Shown here one piece after another: positions 7,305 to 44,550 of a stretch of DNA of 64,000 nucleotides (its first letter is position 1; every line of letters starts with the position of its first letter). Source of the stretch: Paraphaeosphaeria minitans (taxonomy: Eukaryota; Ascomycota; Dothideomycetes; Pleosporales; Didymosphaeriaceae); contig WJXW01000001.1 of assembly GCA_015832175.1 (NCBI GenBank), positions 1,178,001 through 1,242,000 of the forward strand, read 5' to 3'. The notes beneath the pieces were generated by a model. That model made no database searches and was not told where the DNA came from. It saw only the letters and a program-made list of their open reading frames with translations. The position numbers were made by a program, and so were the translations under genes.

Positions 7305-8863
7305 TATCTAGAGAACAGAGTCAGTTGACCACATGCCACCACAAAAGAGGAGATCGTCGACTCACAGTGGTCAAACCGTATATACCACAGCCTACTTCCA
7401 GCGATGATGCTTTTTGATCCTACCCGAAGACAATAGCAAGAGTGTCCTTTTTGGGGAACCAGTTGCCAAAGCGATTTGATTTCGTAACGGGCGTTTGCGA
7501 CCGCGAGAGCACGGACGGAACATAACAGCCGCGGAAAAGAGCGCCCGTGGTTTCAACGAGGAGACCGCCGTTTCCCATGTTGAAACACTCTTAGTGTCCT
7601 GGTCTTGACAAACACAGACATTTGATTCCGGCTGCGACATGCATTGGAAGAAATTACAGTCGAAGGTTGACTATCATCATGAGAACGATATCCAGAGTCC
7701 GAAACCTTATACTATCGCTCCATCTTTTGGTTCTTTTGCATTCTCTGGGGCTATCTAGTCCGCGAGGGTTCTCTGTCTGACAACTTTCTTCTTGAACTCC
7801 TGCTCGCGCATTTTTCGTATGCTGAGCGGATTCCTGCCCCAAGATTCAAGTGTGACGCGGATATAGAGCCCCGAAATGATCAACAAACGACGAGTCTCAA
7901 CAAACGCATCAGTTATACTTGCTTGGCAACGTGAGCCTCGTCTGCTGAAAGTGTTGACATGGCGTTCCGTAGGGACCGCAACTGAGATAGTGTGAGTAAT
8001 ACACATTCTAAAAGCTCTTGTCGCTACTTTATGCTGAGGATAACAGTGGAAGCAGCAATACCAATGCCATGACCAAATACGCGGACCTGTGCTACGGGAA
8101 CTTGAGCAACGGCTGTATCACAAAATTAGCTACGTTATTCTTTGACGCCGGGAGATCCTTACCGTTGTCTCTGATTTCGCTCTCCAAGTTGGCTACCATA
8201 CCTACTGGATGTGCTGATGATCAAGCCGAACCAAGTCCGACAAAAACTTGTAAACCATACCTGAGTCTTCGCTGCCGCACCCCAAATAGGCCAACGTATA
8301 TGATAATGTTATCGAACTCCTCTCCGGTGGTATTAGAACAGTTGCGACAGTGGATGTGTCGAGGAAGCGAGGAATAGTCCGAAACAAATACTGTAAATGT
8401 CCGTACAGTTTATCGTACAAGTAGCACTGGGTGAAGTGGGGGCCTGCCTACCTGTAGGGACCCGCACAAGGACCCACTACTTAGGTCAGCGCTAAGAGGC
8501 AGAGACTTCATAAAGCCCTCAGTGCCCCTTTGTACGATAGACCAGACGTAATCAATTGAACCTACTTCTCACCCTTTGCACGATAGTATACTATCAACCC
8601 TCAAATGCTTGATTGCAGATTGAGCCAAACCAACAGTAAATGTGATAATTAGATGACATTCATGACACAATCCATCGGAAAACATACAAGTGTAGCGACC
8701 TTGTGGCTCGAGGAAAGAGAACATAGTAATCATACTTTTTGTGCATCACCCTAAGGCTCGATGGTCTCGTACCTGACGTAGAGCGATACGCGTACAAGTA
8801 ATTATCCTCAAGCTCTCGGCCATTGGAGGCAGCGAATTTGTCAACCTGTTCGTGCATTGACGC
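7305..8863. other. Gene-poor stretch
   Basis: 1.56 kb. Only short open frames occur (largest about 119 codons), none with a recognisable motif and frames interrupted throughout. Sequence looks like decayed or non-coding DNA. Confidence 0.5.
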
Positions 8864-9367
8864 TCAATGTTGTGCAACATCCAAACTCAGTTTGATAGCG
8901 GTCCTCCCCGGACCGTAGTAGTTAGTGAGCCGCTCAATCTGCTGGAACCCACAGGACGCATACAGTGCTCTGGCTGGGTCGCGAGCCTCATCTACCCACA
9001 AGACTATTGTTTGACAGCCTCCTTTCTTCATCTGCTGACGCAGAAAATCCACGAGACACTTGGCGATACCTTTGCGTCTCTCTTGCTCGATAGTGGCCAG
9101 CTTGTGTAGCCAGGCTAGGCTTTTCTGTCTTTGATAGACGAGGTAAGCAACAAGCTCTTGGGTTCCTTCCTTGAAGACTAAAATTATTCCAATGTTCTTC
9201 TTCTTCAGCTCCACGCCGTAGTCGAAGGCCACACTTGACGGGAAGAGTTTCTTCTCAAATTTGGCCAGTTTGGCTGCTAACGATTCGCGATCCTTTGGCG
9301 GGCATGCCGCAATTGATTGCAGAACAATACCGGAAGGCAAGGTTCCCATGGGGCCTGCGGTCGTCAT
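8864..9367 (-). CDS. GNAT-family N-acetyltransferase
   Basis: Single exon, 167 aa, a normal length for a stand-alone GNAT domain. A beta-strand segment (ELVAYLVYQRQKSLAWLHKL) leads into the acetyl-CoA motif A, with IEQERRKGIAKCLVDFL providing the R/Q-x-x-G-x-A pyrophosphate loop and helix. Motif B follows as ALYASCGFQQIERLTNYYG, the usual Y-x-x-x-GF form. The protein ends KLSLDVAQH. It should transfer acetyl from acetyl-CoA to an amine; the overall look is closest to RimI/Naa-like enzymes, but the substrate cannot be told. There is no signal peptide or extra domain. It stands alone in a gene-poor stretch yet has an undamaged frame, which argues that it is functional. Confidence 0.8.
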   Translation of the reverse strand: MTTAGPMGTLPSGIVLQSIAACPPKDRESLAAKLAKFEKKLFPSSVAFDYGVELKKKNIGIILVFKEGTQELVAYLVYQRQKSLAWLHKLATIEQERRKGIAKCLVDFLRQQMKKGGCQTIVLWVDEARDPARALYASCGFQQIERLTNYYGPGRTAIKLSLDVAQH

Positions 9368-9916
9368 CGCGTCGCTTTTGTATTTTGTGTTTTGTTTTGA
9401 GATGTTAAAGAAGCGGGTGCAGGAATCGTCTAGGTACCGACCCTAATAATTGGTTCCACCCTAAATAGGGCATGCCAAGTCAGGTGACAGCGCGCCGCGG
9501 GCTGCCCATGCGCGATGTGCCATGGTTTCATTCTCCCTGCCACAGCAACTCACTCCTTTGAATGCCAATTAGCGAACAGACAACGAGCAATTGACCCCAG
9601 CTACTTGTCGAGGGCACAGCTACTTATCGCGGGCAGTGGCATCGAACCTCTTTCGGGCAAATTGTATTGCCTATCGCACCGAGGTCTTCAATCGGAGCAC
9701 TGGGGGCCTTGACTTGAGGGAAACGCAAAATACCATGCCCAAATGTGGACTTCAGCTTGGCGAAAATTCGAATTGGCCAAGCCCACCGCAAAGGGGCTTT
9801 CATACTAGGCAGCGCTCATGTTGCACCACGGCTTGGTCCGCTTCAATGTTACCTACCTAGCGCGATTACCAAATGTTCCTTACATATATGTACTACCTAT
9901 GTATCTTCGTTCCACA
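9368..9916. other. Intergenic, no gene seen
   Basis: 549 nt with short open frames only and no recognisable motif. A TCGAACC string near 9648 resembles a tRNA T-arm but lacks a matching stem. Confidence 0.45.
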
Positions 9917-10953
9917 CTATGTAAGCTTTGCCCTTGAATATTCCAGTTCTCTGACTCTGCTAATCCCTCCATTACCCATGATCCATAGTTCCCTCAAATC
10001 GTCGCCGACAAAGGCGAAGTTCTGAACCGTGTAGTTTGTTTGAATCCTGAACAACATCTTTCCAACGTCATCGATCACATCAATGCCGGTACCAGCCCCT
10101 GTAAGGAGAAGACCTTCCCTGCTAACTTTCAACCCGTCCGATACCCAGCTTGAGCTTAGGTAGAAGCTACGCTTATTAAACACCTTCGTGCCGTTGTTTG
10201 CCAGATCGAACGCGTAAATAGTTGCTGGACGTGTCGCATTGAAGGTAGTCCCACGGTCCTTTGCTGCAGTATTTGGATTAGCAGAGCCCTGAACCGCACC
10301 GGTATCAGATATGTACAAGGTGTCGGCGTTTGGGTTAATTGCTATTCCGTTGGGTTGAGCAAGAGTATCATCAATCAGAAAGGTTGCGCCAGTGGTGGGA
10401 TCGAAGCGATATGACGCTGCCGGAAGCTGTGGAGCTGTGTCTGTAAGAGCATTATACCAACTTTGGTCATTGTTAGTCGTGTACTGATGCGACAGGGAGG
10501 AAACACACCTGTAGTAAGAATCTGTAAAATAGATATCTCCAGTAGTAGGATGACAACAACATCATCCATATTATTGAAATATGAACTAAAGTAATTGTTC
10601 AATAGAACAGTAGAATGACTATTGATCGGATCGAGCACACGAAGAGAGGCTCGTTGCTCCATTGGGGGATCTCCAATGCTGCTGCTGCCATCGCTGGCCG
10701 CGAATAATATGAGCGTTCCGTTACCGTAGGACGTACCGCCGTTTGGTGCGTATACTGGCGGGTTCGGAAGATATTCTGACAGAGTTGGGACACTGGGGTT
10801 CAGATCTACGACAAGCTGAGGTAGATAACCAGCTGGGGGTGCTAGCTGGGAGATATACAGCTTGTTCTGTGTCGATACGTAGACAGGTGCCTCATGAACC
10901 GCGTCAGATACCTTGAAGATGAAATCATATGTTGGTGACCCGAGGTAATGCAA
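9917..10953 (-). pseudogene. SMP-30/gluconolactonase-like secreted lactonase, frame broken and N-terminus missing
   Basis: The reading follows the SMP-30/gluconolactonase beta-propeller family. The first segment contains VHEAPVYVSTQNKLYISQL, then YAPNGGTSYGNGTL and VLDPINSHSTVLLNNYF. At about 10552-10556 the frame shifts by one base after NNMDD, and the homologous text resumes as HPTTGDIYFTDSYY. A 66-nt intron (about 10441-10506) leads to TAPQLPAASYRFDPTTGA, then QPNGIAINPNADTLYISDTG and a normal C-terminus. These enzymes hydrolyse sugar or aromatic lactones, often outside the cell. No ATG begins the first segment: a stop lies just upstream, and no convincing signal-peptide exon was found. 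It may be a true pseudogene or a sound gene with a base missing from the assembly. Confidence 0.65.
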
Positions 10954-12640
10954 ACCTCTCTATTGATCAAAGACAACAAAGCTTTGCGTTCGAAAGTAGC
11001 TGGAATGATGAATCAGACGGGACTGAAGTGTTCTGAAAGTCTAGGATGCCTGAATTTGACGAGAAATTTCGGAAGAAGTGATAAGGTAAGACTGATCCCT
11101 ACTGAGTAATGAGCACTTCGCAAGCTTTGGTCTCGAGGGATGCTTGACGTACATATCTATCGTTGCACGCAAATAACTTCACCTGAATCACTACATTGCT
11201 GAGCAACAGGCGTCGTTACGCCAAGAGGTTGTGGAGTTTGTGCATAGGTACTACTGCCTTGCAAACAAAATATGATTATAAATGTCTGTATACTCCGCAT
11301 TTGGTTAGTCGTATTGTTAACCCAGCTTCTCGAGTAGTGTGTTGGTCCAGGTTCGCGGAGTATTATGAGGTGACACCTTGAGCTTCATGTGCACAGAAAA
11401 TGTGCCTGCCCCAGCCTCGCTCCTTTGTGCACTCTGGGTGACGAGCATCCCGTTAGGTAACTCGGGAGGGGTACCCTGCTTTAGGCTAATATATCTCTAA
11501 GTCTTCACGGAGATATGCGCTACATCAGGGCTCGATTGAGTCTACACTTGAAGATCCTGGGAAGTTGAGGGGTAGGTAAGACGGCATCTCGGCAATTGAT
11601 CGAAGGACGTTGAGTGTTCGAAAGCTCATAATGAAGCAACGACCACTACATATTTTGTGAGCAACATAGTCTGAGGTGAGGATTGAAGTGTGACTTCTGA
11701 ATATTGAGCGATTAGGGCGCGTTCTTTAACACAATAAATGACATTGTGCCTAGCTAATGTAGATATTCATTTTAACTTGAGCAGCGATCGTCTAGGCTAG
11801 CTACATCGATCAAACCCAAGGTTGATGTTGAGTTTGTCATGATGGAAGGGCTGTACGTGTGCCGCTCGGTTTTTCAAATCTCATCAGTGTTAACGACGCC
11901 AGAAGTACTGTGCAGAGATCGTCCGATGCCGTGCATGTGCTTAAGTGCTAAGAAATTGTGACTTAAGAAAGTCCGCATTCAAGATATCAGATCCGTTTGT
12001 GACGAGCGGGGATTAAGACTTAACAATCTTACCGCTGTCTATAACATTTTACTCTGTCGTGATAGAGAGTAATTGCACTGTCGTCAATTACGATACGATC
12101 TTCGATCTTTAGCCTAAAGGCGATCACTCAATTTTTCTGAAGCTTTCGCGATGCTTAGTTGGTGACTACCTACCGCCTTTGGTACGGTAGCATCTCCGTC
12201 CACCTAATGGCCAACTCTCCGCATTGCTGGTGTCGGTGTCCTAAAACATGTCATCGGGGCCAAACCAACTCAAGACCATGCGAGCTCGTAGCGCCCTTAT
12301 GAAATGCGTATATCTTGTTGCCGGCTTTGGCTCCTCCTGCTTGAACACTCGCTTCTGTGACTTGAGCTGATCGCAGCGTACATTCGACTATTTGATTAGA
12401 TCATGAGTGCGGTGAAGCCTAGACGATCCGATGATATTAGGGCGAAGTTGTCCTTCAATAACATTACCAACGGATACGATTACGAGCACGGTCTCACGGG
12501 GGAACAGTATGCGGGGATGGATTGTACTACCGCCTCTCACCTTACTTCCTGATATAGAAATGTGCTCAACAGTTGATTGGAGCAGAAGACAGGCTTTGAC
12601 AGAATGCTCTCCCTCAGCACCAAGGGCTTGCTCAACGGCA
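10954..12640. other. Gene-poor, probably decayed DNA
   Basis: About 1.7 kb in which only very short open frames occur, with nothing recognisable on either strand. It separates the broken lactonase from the sugar-transporter relic. Confidence 0.5.
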
Positions 12641-12649
12641 GGGTAAGAG

Positions 12650-13545
12650 GCGGATACCTCACATCTATGGTGGGCTTCGGAGCTTTCAGAGCATTCTTTC
12701 TCTTAGGATACGACCGTAAACCTGAATTCAAAGCCTGAAAATAGAACAAATCTGACATGCCATGAAGCCGAAGTTATGAGTGGAACAATCACTGAGCCAT
12801 TTTTTAACCTTTCCTCGGCATGGAGCCCGAGAACAAGTCAGACGCAATACAAGCTCTCGTCATGGCTATCTACAAGATCAGCTGTCTCATCGACGTAGGT
12901 GATATCGTAGCCTTTGGTGACAAAATTAGGCGTCGTTGCGCTGTCGTTATAGGCGCTCACGTTATTCTCGTCGGTGCTGCGATTAAGACTTCGTCTTTTG
13001 GGCTGGCGCAGATGATAGTAGGTGTTGGACTGGGCATCAGTTGGACCAAAGTGCTGGCTGACTATCAATAGGTTGGCTCCATTGTAACAGACGCTGGGTA
13101 CGGTATGAAAACCAGAACGATATCTGTTTGGGAGTGAGATGGCACCACCAAAGATCCGTGTAATTTTTGTGTTGCTTATAGGTGCGCTCATCACCGCGGG
13201 GATCATGCTCACATACTGGTTTGACTACGGATTCTGGTTTGTTACGCAGTATGGAAGCTTCCAGTGACGGTACTCTAAACTATCCGCTTCCCAAAGGAGG
13301 AGTTCGAACTGAAATGTACCAACAGCTTCCCAACTGCTTTCAACTGTGTCTTCGGTGTCATTGCGATATCAGCGGGGCTCCTGTAAGTATATTAGCGACG
13401 CCCGCCGTATGTACCACTCATTGAATCTAGGTGCCTGAAAGTCCTCGCTGGTTGCTGAAGAACTGCATAGAAGAAGAGGCCGCGGGGATCATGGGCTTTT
13501 TGCACGAATCGGATGCAAACAACCCTGAGGTCTAGGAAGACATTA
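12650..13545 (+). pseudogene. MFS sugar (hexose) transporter relic
   Basis: Fragments of one transporter lie in order on the plus strand but in changing frames. VGFGAFRAFFLLGYDR near 12670-12717 matches the first membrane helix of fungal sugar porters. IQALVMAIYKISCLIDVGD and GDKIRRRCAVVIGAHVILVG near 12850-12980 match helices 2-3 with the degraded GR-[KR]-x-G-RR motif, followed by GLAQMIVGVGLG. VPESPRWLLKN at 13431-13463 is the diagnostic sugar-porter PESPR motif. A fossil intron with GTAAGT and CTAG ends (13383-13430) still precedes it. Stop codons and shifts interrupt every segment, and the second half of the protein is not recognisable. It is non-functional. Confidence 0.7.
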
Positions 13546-14330
13546 AATAGATCAACGAAGTGAATGATATCACAATTGGAGGAAAACCAGTGGATGGCAG
13601 TTGGAACGGCGCAATCGCTGCCACAGTATTTATTTCGTCTATGAATTTATGATACCGCTTTTGCGATAGGGTGATTGGGTGTAACATGGCTCTATCTGGC
13701 AGAGATTACGCCTATCCAAATACATGCGGAGATGACTGGATCTAGTACTTGTTTGAATTGGTGCGTGTACTGTTACAGTACCATTTTATACTAACCGTGG
13801 TGTCACATGCCGTTCAATTATGCAGTCGCACAAATGGCACTAGTTATGGTCACCAAAATGACCTGGAAGACATACATCGTATAAAGTATTGGACGGGGAT
13901 TATGGGATGATGCACGCTCTCTCTTGAACGGGTAGTGCTGTCATCGGTGATGGAATACCTAAGAATTGCGCAATGGTCAGTGAGTTTTTATACCTACCGT
14001 ACTGTGATTATCTAGGTATGAAGACCGCATTGCAATACAGTTTCCAGGCAGGTTCAGTATTGTTTATGACGATTTCGAAGCAACAGAAGCTAGGCATGAA
14101 GAACAACCGAGCACGTGCACAAGAAAACGGAAAGCAATGCACCATGAGCAGAGATTGATGGGATGCAATGCAGTGTCTGCGCTCAGATCGCCAACGAAGC
14201 AGCCCCGCTTCTTCCGACGCCGCTCGCCAAGAACGGGGCTCGGCGCTCGAACAGGCTTGTCAACTGCAGGTTGCCCGCCACTCCTGACCACTCTATCTTA
14301 ACGATACATGACTATAACGCGATTGCGAGA
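13546..14330. other. Decayed DNA between two relics
   Basis: 785 nt, probably including unrecognisable remains of the transporter's 3' half. Only 60-75 codon open frames, with no motif. Confidence 0.4.
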
Positions 14331-15873
14331 ATGGGAGCCAAAACACCCGACGGTCATCACTAGGGACCCAATGGTATCGCTTGACATATCGGCCATTCCA
14401 TCAAAGGTTAACACGTGAGCAGAGTCCGCCGTCCACTCTGCAATTGCCTCTATCAACCCTCCCAAGCCAGCTGCAGCAAGCGGGCTTCTTCAAGGTACCC
14501 TCGAAGGGGAAGACGAAGGTGGGTGGTCTTGTTCCTGATTTACTATGTTCATGCTTAATGTGTGTTTTGCCAGATGGAGACGACGACGATGCTAGAAGCG
14601 GAGCTGATGGGGAAGTGACGGACGCCAAAGAGGGCCAAAAGAAGGAAAGGAAACGCAACAAGGAGAAGACGAAGGGTAAGATGCCTGCGAATCAAACAAT
14701 CCCTCCCCGAGTTGCCTTGTCCAACCTTTTCCCGGACATGCAATTTCCCACGGGTGAAGTTGTGGATCGTGTTGTTGAAGAGAACCTGCAACGCACTACG
14801 GCCGAAGAGATCCGCCACCAAGCCGTTCTGGACGACATGGACGACGAGTTCTTGAGCGACTACCGTAAGGCTGCCGAGGTGCATCGCCAGGTCCGAAAGC
14901 ATGTGCAGACTATCGCAAAGCCGGGCATAACCATGACCGAGCTTGCACAAGAGATAGAAGACGGTGTGAGGGCGCTTGTTGGCCACCAAGGTCTCGAGAC
15001 GGGCGATGCTCTTGAAGTTGGCATGGGTTTTCCCACAGGGCTTTGTTTAAACCACATTGCTGCACACTGGACACCGAATTTCGGGAACAAGGAGGTGGTC
15101 CTGAGGAATGACGACGTTCTCAAGATTGACTTCGGGGTGCACGTTGGTGGGAGAATTGTTGACAGCGCTTTCACATTGGCGTTCAATCCTGTGTACTGTG
15201 TACGATCCCCTACTTGAGGCAGTAAGAGCGACCACCAACACCGGACTGAAGGAAGCTGGTACTGATGCCCACATGGACCATCTGAGCGAGGTTATGCAAG
15301 AAGTGATGGAGAGCTATGAAGTCGAGATCCAAGGGAAGACTGTCCCCGTGAAAGCCGTTCGCAACATTACCGGTCACAACATCTTGCGCTACAGGATCCA
15401 TGGCGATAAACAGGTTCCTTTTTACAAGACGAAGACAAGCCAACGTATGGAAGAAGGCGACATTTTTGCTATCGAAACTTTCGGCACTACAGGCAGAGCT
15501 CGAATGATGGACGATATTGGCATTTAGGGGTACGGTCGTAACCAGAACGTGAGCACTGCGGGCCTTCACCATGTTTCTGCTAAGTCGTTGTTAAAGACGA
15601 TAGATGCAAATTTTGGCTCGATAGTCTTTGCTAAGCGCTACCTTGAACGCATCGGTGTCAAGAACTACCATCTTGGCATGAGATCGCTGGTGCAGCACGG
15701 TGTAGTTGAGTCATACGCGGCACTAGTCGACATCCCAGGCTCATATGTGGCCCAGTTTGAGCATGTAAAGAATACCCATGCAGTACGATTGATCACTTGC
15801 TAACCTTGCGTTGTAGACTGTGTTACTGCGTCCTAATTGTAAAGAGATCGTCTCTCGTGGCGACGATTATTGA
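14331..15873 (+). pseudogene. Methionine aminopeptidase 2 copy, inactivated
   Basis: Nearly all of a fungal MetAP2 can be followed. It starts [10 protein letters not shown] at 14331 but meets TAG at 14361. After an acidic/basic low-complexity stretch and a 55-nt intron (14519-14573), the pita-bread domain runs [37 protein letters not shown] (His ligand region), [18 protein letters not shown] (two metal aspartates), then [17 protein letters not shown] and [11 protein letters not shown] tandem 7-bp duplication (TGTGTAC twice, 15190-15203) shifts the frame after NPVY. A TAG at 15525 interrupts the last third. The final 52-nt intron (15765-15816) and the C-terminus LLRPNCKEIVSRGDDY are intact. 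MetAP2 removes initiator methionine, so a working copy must exist elsewhere; this looks like a decaying paralogue. Confidence 0.85.
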
Positions 15874-17092
15874 TGCTGGTCGAATATTGAAACGGGATGT
15901 ACGAGTCACATGCATCCCTTGGCTGGGTAGATGCGCCTTGGACTTCAACAGCCACGGTAGTATGCACGGTTACAGATTTTTGAGAACCTGGGATGACGAA
16001 ATACCACGATTCAACATCGCACTCGCTTCTTCAACTCCACTAAAGTGATATTCTGTCTTTTAGCGGGGGTTGACACAGGTCAGGGATAAAGAACATTATA
16101 TGACCAATTTTCGGCGAGAAGGTGAAAGATCAAGTGAGAATAAGCCGACTAGGTATATGCGTCAAATGTTATGCACACGAATCGCCAATGCGTCAATGAA
16201 AAGGAAGACAAAAAGTCCACACCTGAACCGTATCAAGCTCATTGAATTTGACACACGAGTCCACTGATGTGCCGTAGGCAGGCGGGATGGTGTTACGAAT
16301 GCACTATTGGAGGCTGCACGAGAAAGGGAGTACTGAGAATGCCGAAGTCCGATGGCACGCTCAGCCTAGTCTAGAAAGAAGCTGCTTGATGCCGCCCTAT
16401 GAATAGACGACGGCTTTTAAATACTAAAGGACAGAATGAAGGGTACTTGACTGGTCATACCAACAGCAGCGTCCCGAAATAGGCGAGCGGTTGCCGGTTG
16501 GTGAGCCCACTCAACATGATTGGCTGCTGAAGCGCATACTGTGTTGCGACCATAAGTAGCCCCAGTGGGGACGCTCGGAGTGGTGTTTCGGTACACTGAT
16601 CGGTGGAGCTTTGACGCGATAATATATTGATTCCCCCTCATAAAATATGGGGAGATGCTGAGGTTCCTACTTCATAGAGGAAATTGCTAGCTAATCTAGG
16701 TACTTTGTTACTGTGTATACAGTACTAGAGGACTCTGGCAGTTTCGGGGTGCAGGGGGGTGAAACAAGGCCCCACTGGGACTACTTATGGTCGCAACCAC
16801 AGTAGCTCCAATATCTATCCGCACCCATTATCCTTGTCGATGACAGCACTAGGAATACAGTTCGTCGGTCAAACATGACCGCATATTAGAATTACAGTAA
16901 GAGCTAAAAGATACCATGTTGAGCTCGACACCGAAATGGCTCTGGTGCCCGTACTTGGTACCCGCTCCCCAGCGCAGGAACCGCTGGTTATGGCATGCAT
17001 CTAGTGAGCCTAGTTGATAGCCGTGCTATGTTGGCGCGACTATGGCGTACGGCAAGTGGAGAAGCCTGTGTCCAGCTCCTGGAAGTGCCGTG
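15874..17092. other. Gene-poor stretch
   Basis: About 1.2 kb without recognisable genes. The last few hundred bases must hold the promoter of the secreted protein gene at 17167. Confidence 0.5.
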
Positions 17093-42146: not shown

Positions 42147-43578
42147 TTAGTTCGAATCATCCTGCAGTCCCTCCCACAGCTGTTTCTCTCTCTTCGGCCG
42201 CAGCCCCGTGAACCACGAGGCCCCTTCATTTCCAACAGGTATGTTCTTCGCCCTGTCTTCTTCATCTGCACTGAGCTGAAATTTTCTCATTCGCTCTCCA
42301 ATTCTCGGATCGATGACCATATCGTCTAGCCAGACCCTCTCTCCTTCGCCCTCTTTTCTTTCCCTCACCGTCTTATGCCACTCAGGCTCTTCATGTGTGA
42401 GCAAGCGCAGCTGTTCCCATTGCCCGCCTTGGTCTTCGTCGCTGCTGGCTAGCTCCGGAGCAGTGGTGTCGTACGGTCTGTAGGAAGCAAGCACGGCGGA
42501 GACGACTTCGCGTCCGGCTTCGTCTGCAACCTTCCGTCGGTTGAGAAAGCGATACATCCGTATTGGAAAGTTGAAGAAACCGAGCAAATGTGGGAGTGCG
42601 ACAGTCGCACTAGGTCCGAGGGCTTGCGGGCAGGTTGGCGGGAGTTGCGCCTGTGAATATTCGGCCGTTGTGATGAACGGCGGAGGCTGTTTCTTCTTCT
42701 TGGGCTTTGCCTCTTCCTTGGGTGGTTCGGCTTCGGAGGGTGCTGGTGTTTCGTGGACAGTGGTAGGCGATGCATCATCGGTCGGAGTCACTGGCGTAGG
42801 CTGTTCTTGGACTGCTTCGGGTGTGGTAACTGGCGGAGCTTCAGGCGCAGGCGGTGCGGGTTCGTACAAGTCCACAGAAGATGGGGGATCTAGTGGCCCG
42901 AGCCATCCCTCATGCATCCCTCTAACATACTCTTTCCATGTATGTCTCCCAATCACTATGTCACCCGCCGGCTCATTGCACTCTGGAACACCGGCCCTAA
43001 GCCTCAGATCTTCTACGATGTCCTTTGTGTTGAGCTCAGGTTTCTCCTTCAGAGTCTCCCCTCTCTTCCACCTCAACCTGCGTATCCTTTCCGCCAACCC
43101 TGCTCTGACATCACCCTCGTGTCTTCCCTCCACCGCATCCCAGTCCAGTGCCGCCGCGACCAGTATCGGCTTCACGTACTCGTTGAAGTGGTCGCGCGCA
43201 GCTACTAGCCCATCGGCCGGCGGCGCCGAGAGATATACAGTAAGCTTGCGTGGCATCTGGCGCTCGTTCACCGATTCTTTCGCGATGTGTTCGACCATCT
43301 TTGTCCATTTCTGTTGTATGCGCTTCTTTTCACGACGGTCGTAAACAACGGCGGCCGTCCAGGAGCCGGTGATGGAGAGGAATATCATCCAATTTCGCGA
43401 AGGAAGCTTCCAGCGGAAATTGGGCAGACCTGTACTTGTTAGCAAGGGGAAGCAGAAGTCAATGGCAAGACGGAGGCGCACCCATCATCCTCCACACAGG
43501 ATTCGGAGGCTTTGGCGGCTTCGCAGCATTCTGCGATGGATTGGGGGCTTGCGACGCTTTCGCATCGGATTCAGCCAT
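42147..43578 (-). CDS. TIM54: Mitochondrial inner membrane translocase subunit Tim54
   Basis: complement(join(42147..43429,43482..43578)), 459 aa, normal for fungi. Exon 1 encodes MAESDAKASQAPNPSQNAAK to NPVWRMMG. A 52-nt intron (GTGCGC to ACAG) precedes LPNFRWKLPSRNWMIFLSIT, the single membrane helix near residues 40-60. The intermembrane-space part contains MPRKLTVYLSAPPADGL and RDHFNEYVKPILVAAALDWD, both typical of Tim54. A Pro/Glu-rich linker follows, and the C-terminal block has LGFFNFPIRMYRFLNRRKVA and WLDDMVIDPRIGERMRKF. Tim54 belongs to the TIM22 complex, which inserts carrier proteins into the inner membrane. Translating without splicing would give a false N-terminus starting MRLRLAIDF. 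Confidence 0.92.
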
Positions 43579-43786: not shown

Positions 43787-43792
43787 AAAAAA
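43787..43792 (-). terminator. RNA polymerase III terminator (T6)
   Basis: Six T on the minus strand, 17 nt past the 3' end of the tRNA-like sequence. Position and strand fit a pol III terminator for that gene. Confidence 0.6.
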
Positions 43793-43809: not shown

Positions 43810-43962
43810 TGGCGGTACTGGGAATCGAACTGTTACTACAGTCAGTACTCGTTGCTTGCGTTGATGAGATCCTCTCGAGGAGAGGGCCAACCTACCCCAG
43901 GCTGGCGCGGAATTATCATGTGTTTTCCACAACGCGACGTCATACCACTAGACCATACCACC
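43810..43962 (-). tRNA. tRNA-His (GTG) with an anticodon intron and a 66-nt T-arm insertion
   Basis: The 153-nt locus folds as a tRNA once two segments are set aside. Acceptor stem: GGTGGTA (43962-43956) with TACCGCC, and discriminator A at 43810. The D arm GTCTAGTGGTATGAC has a 3-bp stem. The anticodon stem pairs CGCG with CGCG, and the spliced loop is TTGTGGC, identical to the yeast tRNA-His loop as I recall it, with anticodon GTG and G37. A 16-nt intron (43911-43926) sits after G37, the canonical position, and its ACAC can pair with the anticodon. T stem CTGGG/CCCAG is perfect and the loop is TTCGATT, but 66 nt (43830-43895) separate stem from loop. A B-box-like AGTTCGATTCC survives across the junction and a T6 terminator follows. 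The 27-43 pair is a T-C mismatch. It could be a pseudogene. Confidence 0.65.
43830..43895 (-). other. 66-nt GT-AG, intron-like insertion inside the tRNA-His T arm
   Basis: Read on the minus strand it starts GTAGGT and ends GTAACAG. It carries TACTGAC 15 nt from its end, like a spliceosomal branch site, and contains a perfect 6-bp hairpin CCTCTC-CTC-GAGAGG. Removing exactly this segment rejoins a perfect T arm. Its length is within the range of protein-gene introns in this window. Introner-like elements, which are mobile spliceosomal introns with stable hairpins known from Dothideomycetes, are a possible source; this is inference. Confidence 0.55.
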
Positions 43963-44550
43963 GTGGTATTTAGATGGTGAGTCGCAATCACCTGATTGAT
44001 GAAAATTCTGCTGTGCAAAACAAATATATACCCAATTAAAACGGAGTATTGACAACGGATCCGGTAATTTCCTTCCAAGCCACATGCCGTGAGCCTACCT
44101 GTGGATATAATCGGTGCGAATTTGATTGGCATGTGCAACGCCGGACTCCACTTGACCGCTCCACTTGGCTCCTAGAATCTTCAGATGGTGTACCTCGCAA
44201 GTAGTAACATCGAATCTACAAACTCTCCATGCATTGTAAGACGCATCGGTGATACTCAAGATTAAATACGAAGAAAACTGTGTTCTGCCTCGTGAGGGTG
44301 ACACGGGTCGATTTGCTCATCGATCACAACTATGTACAAAAACAAGATCAAGTCCTGTCTCTCTTCCTGAGCTGATGAAGCTCTAACCTGCCTTCTATAG
44401 GACGTACTTTAATCTATAAGTGCTACCTGGTTGGAATTTTCCATGAAAATCCGGGCATTAGTCAGACGCACGTTCCGTTCAACACACGGCATGATCATGC
44501 TGCTCTTTCAATATGCACAAAACCGGGGAGGTGGAGTGATGCCCTTTTTT
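43963..44550. other. Intergenic, no gene seen
   Basis: 588 nt between the tRNA-like locus and the stop of the AT-hook gene. AT-richer than the neighbours, no recognisable feature. Confidence 0.45.

Follow-up and report, generated by a model that had tools for sequence, protein, structure and literature searches.

The tRNA-His(GTG) gene on contig C1 of Paraphaeosphaeria minitans, a mycoparasite of the Pleosporales (Dothideomycetes) with biocontrol use, is split by a 66 nt insert which very probably is a true spliceosomal intron of the major (U2-type) class in a nuclear tRNA gene, and at least 13 such introns, at ten insertion sites, are predicted in this genome. In the textbook division the spliceosome serves mRNA and an endonuclease with a ligase serves tRNA, and we know of no action of the spliceosome on tRNAs; in P. 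minitans, both splicing systems seem to share one small RNA as substrate. At the level of sequence, this is supported by inserts with precise boundaries and splice signals, by acceptor and T stems that are intact, by paralogues without the insert in several isotypes, and by TATA-like elements and T-runs that have been retained. The spliceosome is likely to be indispensable for tRNA maturation in this lineage, being required for the His and initiator tRNAs, with pol III transcripts as routine substrates, and with introns that keep invading by reverse splicing while the internal promoters still work. The making of essential tRNAs in P. minitans thus probably requires the spliceosome.

Anatomy of the tRNA-His(GTG) gene on contig C1

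Positions given without a contig refer to the window, i.e. the whole stretch of 64,000 nt of DNA that was analysed, in which the features described below are all on the reverse strand. The tRNA-His(GTG) gene (43810..43962) extends from G1 of the acceptor stem to the discriminator base A73, as aligned with Rfam RF00005 and by ARAGORN after excision of the insert. Its 5′ part (43896..43962) comprises the acceptor 5′ strand, the D arm with the A box, the anticodon arm, a canonical 16 nt anticodon-loop intron (43911..43926) that is expected to be removed by the tRNA splicing endonuclease, the variable loop and the T-stem strand CTGGG, while the 3′ part (43810..43829) supplies the T loop TTCGATT, the T-stem strand CCCAG, the acceptor 3′ strand TACCGCC and A73. 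The 66 nt GT-AG intron (43830..43895) is located between positions 53 and 54, at the T-stem/T-loop junction. Its length and that of the anticodon intron were confirmed as given in the original prediction, as were the GTAGGT start (5′ splice site, 43890..43895) and the AACAG end (3′ splice site, 43830..43834). The branch-point sequence TACTGAC (43841..43847) had been placed 15 nt before AACAG, which was incorrect, as the branch A is base 13 of the insert when counted from its 3′ end with A included.

The acceptor stem is complete (7/7 pairs), and the T stem increases from 1/5 pairs with the insert to 5/5 pairs (CTGGG/CCCAG) without it, in line with the restored stem that had been predicted. As also expected, the B-box-like AGTTCGATTCC survives the insertion, with the AG of the insert replacing bases 52–53, and this stretch may serve as B box; a T6 run resembling a pol III terminator (43787..43792) starts 17 nt downstream of the gene. 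A TATA-like element was detected 68 nt upstream (44015..44031). ARAGORN reported no tRNA at this locus before excision of the insert and His(gtg) after it. An Rfam scan of the 64-kb window gave no family at or above its cut-off, and at a permissive threshold the Rfam tRNA model aligned the whole gene, insert included, with a score of 26.9 bits (cut-off 29).

The window also contains the downstream Tim54 gene, of which the protein shares 99% identity with P. minitans PMIN07_000055 (98% query coverage), with Didymosphaeria and Karstenula being the next named relatives; Bimuria is a further relative that was matched at the protein level. The 52 nt intron of this gene (GTGCGC...GCTAACAAGTACAG, 43430..43481) was confirmed by protein alignment (P. 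minitans protein P0001), and its build matches that of the tRNA inserts.

The perfect 6 bp hairpin described for the insert (CCTCTC-CTC-GAGAGG) is present in the C1 copy and is shorter in both other tRNA-His copies; a functional role was rejected, given these shorter versions and a folding z-score of +0.58. All three His introns share an ACTGT-N4-ACAGT inverted repeat between the branch point and the 3′ splice site (43829-43842), with a different loop in L003, which may draw the 3′ splice site nearer. Furthermore, the eight bases directly preceding the tRNA (AATACCAC, 43963-43970) are kept in all three copies (including L002 and L003), as opposed to most of the leader, and seven of these eight bases are complementary to the 5′ acceptor strand ATACCACGGTGGTAT (43955-43962).

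The insert is shared by the three tRNA-His genes detected

A DNA search of the genome (47.45 Mb, 30 contigs) with a 211-base query from the locus identified three tRNA-His loci, on C1, C2 and C6, and an exon pattern of 21 bases, in which as many as three mismatches were tolerated, returned the same three loci together with three Pro genes. Both additional tRNA-His(GTG) genes carry an insert at the 53/54 site, giving inserts of 66, 62 and 57 nt, next to canonical anticodon introns of 16, 8 and 8 nt, respectively. The mature parts are nearly identical in pairwise comparison (71/71, 70/71 and 70/71), while the inserts share 53/62, 46/57 and 47/57 bases, with conservation of the initial GTAGGT, the adjoining stretch and TACTGACTGTA...ACAG. 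The 5′ splice site and the branch-point sequence TACTGAC are identical in the three copies, with the branch A of CTGAC always at base 13 as counted from the 3′ end. Conserved mature parts with drifted inserts are the pattern seen when selection acts on the mature RNA and the intron is freer to change. In sequence, the other two copies have unrelated flanks. An exact 22-base His exon pattern had no match in viral contigs, and in prokaryote genomes it matched only two bacterial tRNA genes, which lack the insert and are not relatives.

Split tRNA genes at ten insertion sites

A spliceosome-type intron in a tRNA gene, as originally proposed for the single locus, proved to be an anatomy shared by 13 genes genome-wide, with ten further split genes comprising two Pro(AGG), two initiator Met, three Leu, one Ser, one Thr and one Ala gene. 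The 13 genes represent ten insertion sites (numbered by hand), and were observed among 87 nuclear tRNA genes, the other 74 being unsplit and called by ARAGORN in an incomplete inventory. Two of three Pro(AGG) genes contain GTAAGT...CTAAC...CAG in the D loop, and the third has no insert. Matches to Rfam led to the initiator tRNA-Met L076, with GTAAGT...TACTAAC...TTAG at 38/39, to the Ser gene L078 with an intron after base 3, and to the Leu(CAG) gene L079 with an intron after base 10. The second initiator tRNA-Met (L082) has a different intron at 46/47, and the Thr gene L081 is interrupted after base 5, while Leu(AAG) L102, Leu(CAG) L110 and Ala(CGC) L139 were recovered from places matching a B-box pattern. 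The introns of L110 (24/25) and L102 (23/24) are one base apart and do not match each other, and are apparently independent gains at a near-identical place. Insert-free relatives are present for Pro(AGG), Ala(CGC) (L105, the partner of L139), Leu(AAG) and Ser(CGA). Both initiator tRNA-Met genes found are split, at different sites, in a non-exhaustive survey that could miss an insert-free copy. The single U6 gene found is full length and without intron (47 of 2663 candidates scored), as are all 28 of the 28 5S matches (47 of 2502 candidates scored), which indicates that only some classes of pol III genes are affected.

The B-box pattern matched 100 places in the genome, compared to 71 for a reversed control; 15 were already in the set and 85 were new. 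A T-stem filter passed 34 of 80 of these places and then none of five, and inspection by eye divided the 34 into 23 clear tRNA genes, six odd ones and five chance matches (L091, L101, L152, L153 and L155). The 74 unsplit genes include these six odd genes and the degenerate Glu-like L080. A first look with Rfam, in which 62 of 1307 candidates were scored, had missed Asp genes that were found by the B-box search. A D-loop pattern matched 13 places, as did its reversed control, with the two known Pro genes as the only tRNAs and repeats or chance matches making up the rest.

Several side observations were made in this survey. The six odd tRNA-like genes (L095, L104, L108, L121, L130 and L162) mostly have long inserts in the anticodon region, with T-runs downstream, and show GAGAC or a similar sequence ahead of the T stem; five ARAGORN introns in the unsplit genes measured 91 to 142 nt, and the six genes may be tRNAs with long introns, or a repeat family that derives from tRNAs. 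The D-loop pattern also detected an 18 nt tandem repeat resembling an A box (L045-L049, C1:2002722-2002884). A dispersed AT-rich repeat (TAGCTAAAGGGTAGTAGGT...; L051, L052, L054, L055 and L056) displays many transitions between copies, which is suggestive of repeat-induced point mutation. Mitochondrial-type tRNAs were seen by eye inside contig C3 (C3:2840217-2853194), and indicate either mitochondrial DNA inserted in the nuclear genome or a join made in assembly. Finally, L028 (C10:840122-840236) resembles a tRNA gene without a clear isotype, in which the anticodon region is interrupted by a repetitive insert.

Excision of the inserts restores the tRNA

After excision, all 13 genes have 7/7 acceptor pairs and 5/5 T-stem pairs (G-T allowed; scoring covered the acceptor and T stems), with the acceptor pairs of the Ser and Thr genes increasing from 5 to 7, and the T-stem pairs of the three His genes from 1–2 to 5. 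Before excision, ARAGORN found no tRNA in eight of the split genes, a wrong isotype in four and the right one in a single gene, while after excision the expected anticodon was reported for 10/13. The three miscalls after excision (His_C6 as Asp, Ser as '???' and Thr as Trp) are attributed by us to the placement of the second, canonical intron by ARAGORN, and the isotypes Ser(CGA) and Thr(CGT) were assigned by eye. In the Rfam scan of the genome (cut-off 29 bits) the His genes scored 28.0, 26.9 and 25.3; five split genes were above the cut-off (30.2 to 45.7), and the scan had no entry for L102, L110, L139 and the two Pro genes. As some insert-free genes (e.g. L039) were missed as well, a low score alone is weak proof of an insertion.

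Comparison with empty sites gave close matches, with spliced Pro L038 and insert-free L039 alike in 89/90 bases, spliced Ala L139 and L105 in 84/87, and spliced Leu L102 and L069 in 95/98 with one gap. The initiator tRNA-Met genes L076 and L082 each lack the intron of the other and have identical spliced forms (72/72 bases), and on sequence grounds this pair is the cleanest proof of the intron boundaries. The boundaries of L076 which restore the L082 sequence correspond to GT-AG at 38/39, and not to the endonuclease site at 37/38.

Splice signals and controls

All 13 inserts have GT-AG ends, and 11 contain the full motif GTRNGY/CTRAC/YAG, with the exceptions being the Leu genes L102 and L110, which have weak branch points, and of which the L110 insert ends in AAG. 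The 5′ ends are GTAAGT (six inserts), GTAGGT (three), GTAAGC (two), GTACGT and GTGAGT (one each), and the 3′ ends are CAG (ten), TAG (two) and AAG (one). The branch A of CTRAY is 10–13 bases from the 3′ end (A counted) in 12 of the 13 inserts. Insert lengths range from 49 to 66 nt, against 52 nt for the sole confirmed protein-gene intron (Tim54, n=1).

The order GTRNGY...CTRAC...YAG had 16 matches in the 64-kb window when both strands were read and overlaps were allowed (the His insert and the Tim54 intron are among them), compared to an average of 7.8 over 20 simulations of the window with a first-order Markov model, corresponding to approximately one match per 8,000 to 16,000 positions. That 11 of the 13 genes have so rare a motif at the junction which the tRNA fold dictates is not due to chance. 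ARAGORN called anticodon introns in 60 of the 74 unsplit genes; the control was restricted to the 20 that are long enough for a looser version of the motif, since most canonical introns are too short, and none of these 20 contained it. Anywhere in the gene, the looser motif was present in 1/74 unsplit genes (L095) versus 13/13 split genes. Four mitochondrial-looking loci (L012, L015, L016 and L077) were excluded from these intron-control counts, and from the TATA and T-run counts given below.

Transcription signals

A TATA-like element is located upstream of 11 of the 13 split genes, at 40–54 nt from exon 1 in ten of these and at 68 nt in the His gene on C1, with none upstream of the other two; in the unsplit genes, such an element was present in 47/74 at a median distance of 46 nt. 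The distances for Ser (47 nt) and Thr (42 nt) were counted from first exons of 3 and 5 bases, and thus provide independent support for these mini-exons. A run of four or more T residues within 50 nt downstream was found for 13/13 split and 73/74 unsplit genes. As judged by eye, the A and B boxes are undamaged by any of the 13 introns, and the intron-terminal AG substitutes for box bases in the His genes (52–53) and in Leu L079 (9–10). The sparing of both boxes suggests that only insertions which leave the promoter functional survive.

Alternative explanations

The original prediction proposed that an introner had landed in the tRNA gene. Introner-like elements, a mobile intron family of short GT-AG introns reportedly described in Dothideomycetes in a 2012 paper, would match the inserts in their size, their GT-AG ends, the fungal class of the host and the hairpin in the His insert. 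However, genome searches with the His insert matched only the three tRNA-His loci, and those with the ten other inserts returned only the ten self matches (in a word-based search that old or diverged families would escape), so that no multi-copy family was found and no copy of the His insert exists among the matches outside these loci. Furthermore, inserts at different sites have no mutual match at E 0.01, and 11 of the 13 inserts lack an unusually stable fold (folding z-scores of -1.5 to +1.2, with -2.03 and -2.76 for the other two). The absence of copies and of cross-site matches, together with ordinary folding in these 11, fits poorly with an active introner family, and we consider such an origin quite improbable. 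The C1 gene and Tim54 share a strand, with the start codon of Tim54 approximately 230 nt downstream of the tRNA gene, which would fit with pol II making longer capped RNAs from the split genes, in which case the splicing would be ordinary and only the host gene odd. This has very little probability, as the split genes keep TATA-like elements (11/13, at the distance seen in unsplit genes) and T-runs (13/13), and the two other His copies are in unrelated flanks.

Removal of the inserts as non-canonical tRNA introns by the tRNA splicing endonuclease, or by another endonuclease, together with a ligase would make the GT-AG ends incidental. Sections of a review (PMC4090602) describe non-canonical introns from archaea at sites that include 3/4, 25/26 and 53/54, as well as some from eukaryotic nuclei, and most of the split genes also contain a canonical intron. 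Such an enzyme needs no GT, CTRAC or AG, yet GT-AG ends are present in every insert and the whole motif in 11/13, compared to 0/20 long canonical introns; the boundaries of L076 that match L082 fit GT-AG at 38/39 and not the canonical 37/38; and none of the 13 inserts reaches a bulge-helix-bulge with 4 central and 3+3 flanking pairs, in a strict count at exact boundaries only which makes for a weak test. We therefore regard this explanation as very unlikely. The split genes would alternatively be pseudogenes disabled by insertion, with insert-free genes supplying the working tRNAs, as is conceivable for Pro(AGG), Ala(CGC), Leu(AAG) and Ser(CGA), and in agreement with the statement in the same sections that D- or T-arm inserts in eukaryotes are supposed pseudogenes (PMC4090602). 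Against this, all three tRNA-His and both initiator tRNA-Met genes found are split, the latter at different sites, the acceptor and T stems are whole in all 13 genes while the introns drift, and random insertions would not all have splice signals at their exact boundaries. A pseudogene origin hence has hardly any probability, and the dead tRNA envisaged originally is unlikely as well, with the mature parts of all three His genes conserved.

Proposed maturation pathway and origin of the introns

The preferred explanation remains that these inserts are spliceosomal introns. Pol III would transcribe the split gene through the intron, U1 and U2 would recognise GTRNGY and CTRAC, respectively, the spliceosome would excise the insert as a lariat, and RNase P, RNase Z and the tRNA splicing endonuclease would complete the tRNA. 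Since the acceptor stems of the Ser and Thr tRNAs are whole only after excision, spliceosomal removal should precede the trimming of the ends. The presence of ten sites with dissimilar insert sequences points to several independent gains, and the introns may thus have originated repeatedly. In our preferred route, free introns would be reverse-spliced into pre-tRNA, and reverse transcription and recombination would follow, as was proposed for U6.

The split genes make it possible to test the dependence of the spliceosome on a cap or on pol II, and to test how it acts on a transcript of <250 nt. Intron gain likewise becomes testable, as paralogous tRNA genes with different introns offer exact sites and empty-site controls.

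Comparison with known systems

In a literature search covering few subscription papers and no bioRxiv preprints, a spliceosomal intron in a tRNA gene was unreported among the matches listed, an absence that is not proof. A phrase search matched only two papers, PMC13281952 and PMC13247085, the latter through a citation of 'non-spliceosomal splicing of tRNAs'. The available text of the 2014 tRNA-intron review (PMC4090602) has no word beginning with 'spliceosom', and the same applies to the available text of the tRNAscan-SE 2.0 paper (PMC8450103), which describes a non-canonical intron search for its archaeal model, using bulge-helix-bulge covariance models. The split genes point to a blind spot in tRNA gene detection.

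According to sections of two papers (PMC4090602, PMC3978253), the non-canonical tRNA introns of archaea and Cyanidioschyzon merolae are substrates of an endonuclease that depends on the bulge-helix-bulge, and nucleomorph tRNA introns are 3–24 nt in length, with a mode of splicing that is unknown. The P. minitans inserts resemble these introns, as described in the same sections, in occupying 3/4, 25/26, 53/54 and other sites, sometimes with several introns per gene, but differ from them in carrying spliceosome signals.

The premise of the original prediction, in which pol III transcripts are not known as substrates of the spliceosome, is contradicted by the U6 gene of Schizosaccharomyces pombe, which has an mRNA-type intron for which an origin by reverse splicing was suggested (excerpts of PMC10484740). 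The tRNA inserts share with this case, as described there, the location of a spliceosomal intron within a pol III transcript, whereas the U6 gene found in P. minitans has no intron. As U6 is a part of the spliceosome, its intron could be explained as an accident, which does not apply to tRNAs, since these are not in the spliceosome.

Ascomycete nuclear rDNA also contains spliceosomal introns (Cubero 2000 and Bhattacharya 2000, as cited in parts of PMC11889510 and PMC8527467), and a lichen rDNA intron placed in yeast rDNA was reported in those parts to be spliced from a pol I transcript. Both there, as far as these parts describe, and in P. minitans, GT-AG introns interrupt a structural RNA that is not made by pol II. 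In contrast to the pol I rRNA, the P. minitans hosts are pol III tRNAs of several isotypes, with ten insertion sites, and unlike rDNA the tRNA genes are tiny, scattered and equipped with internal promoters. Spliceosomal introns outside pol II genes are already known from rDNA and S. pombe U6, and tRNA would be a new class of host.
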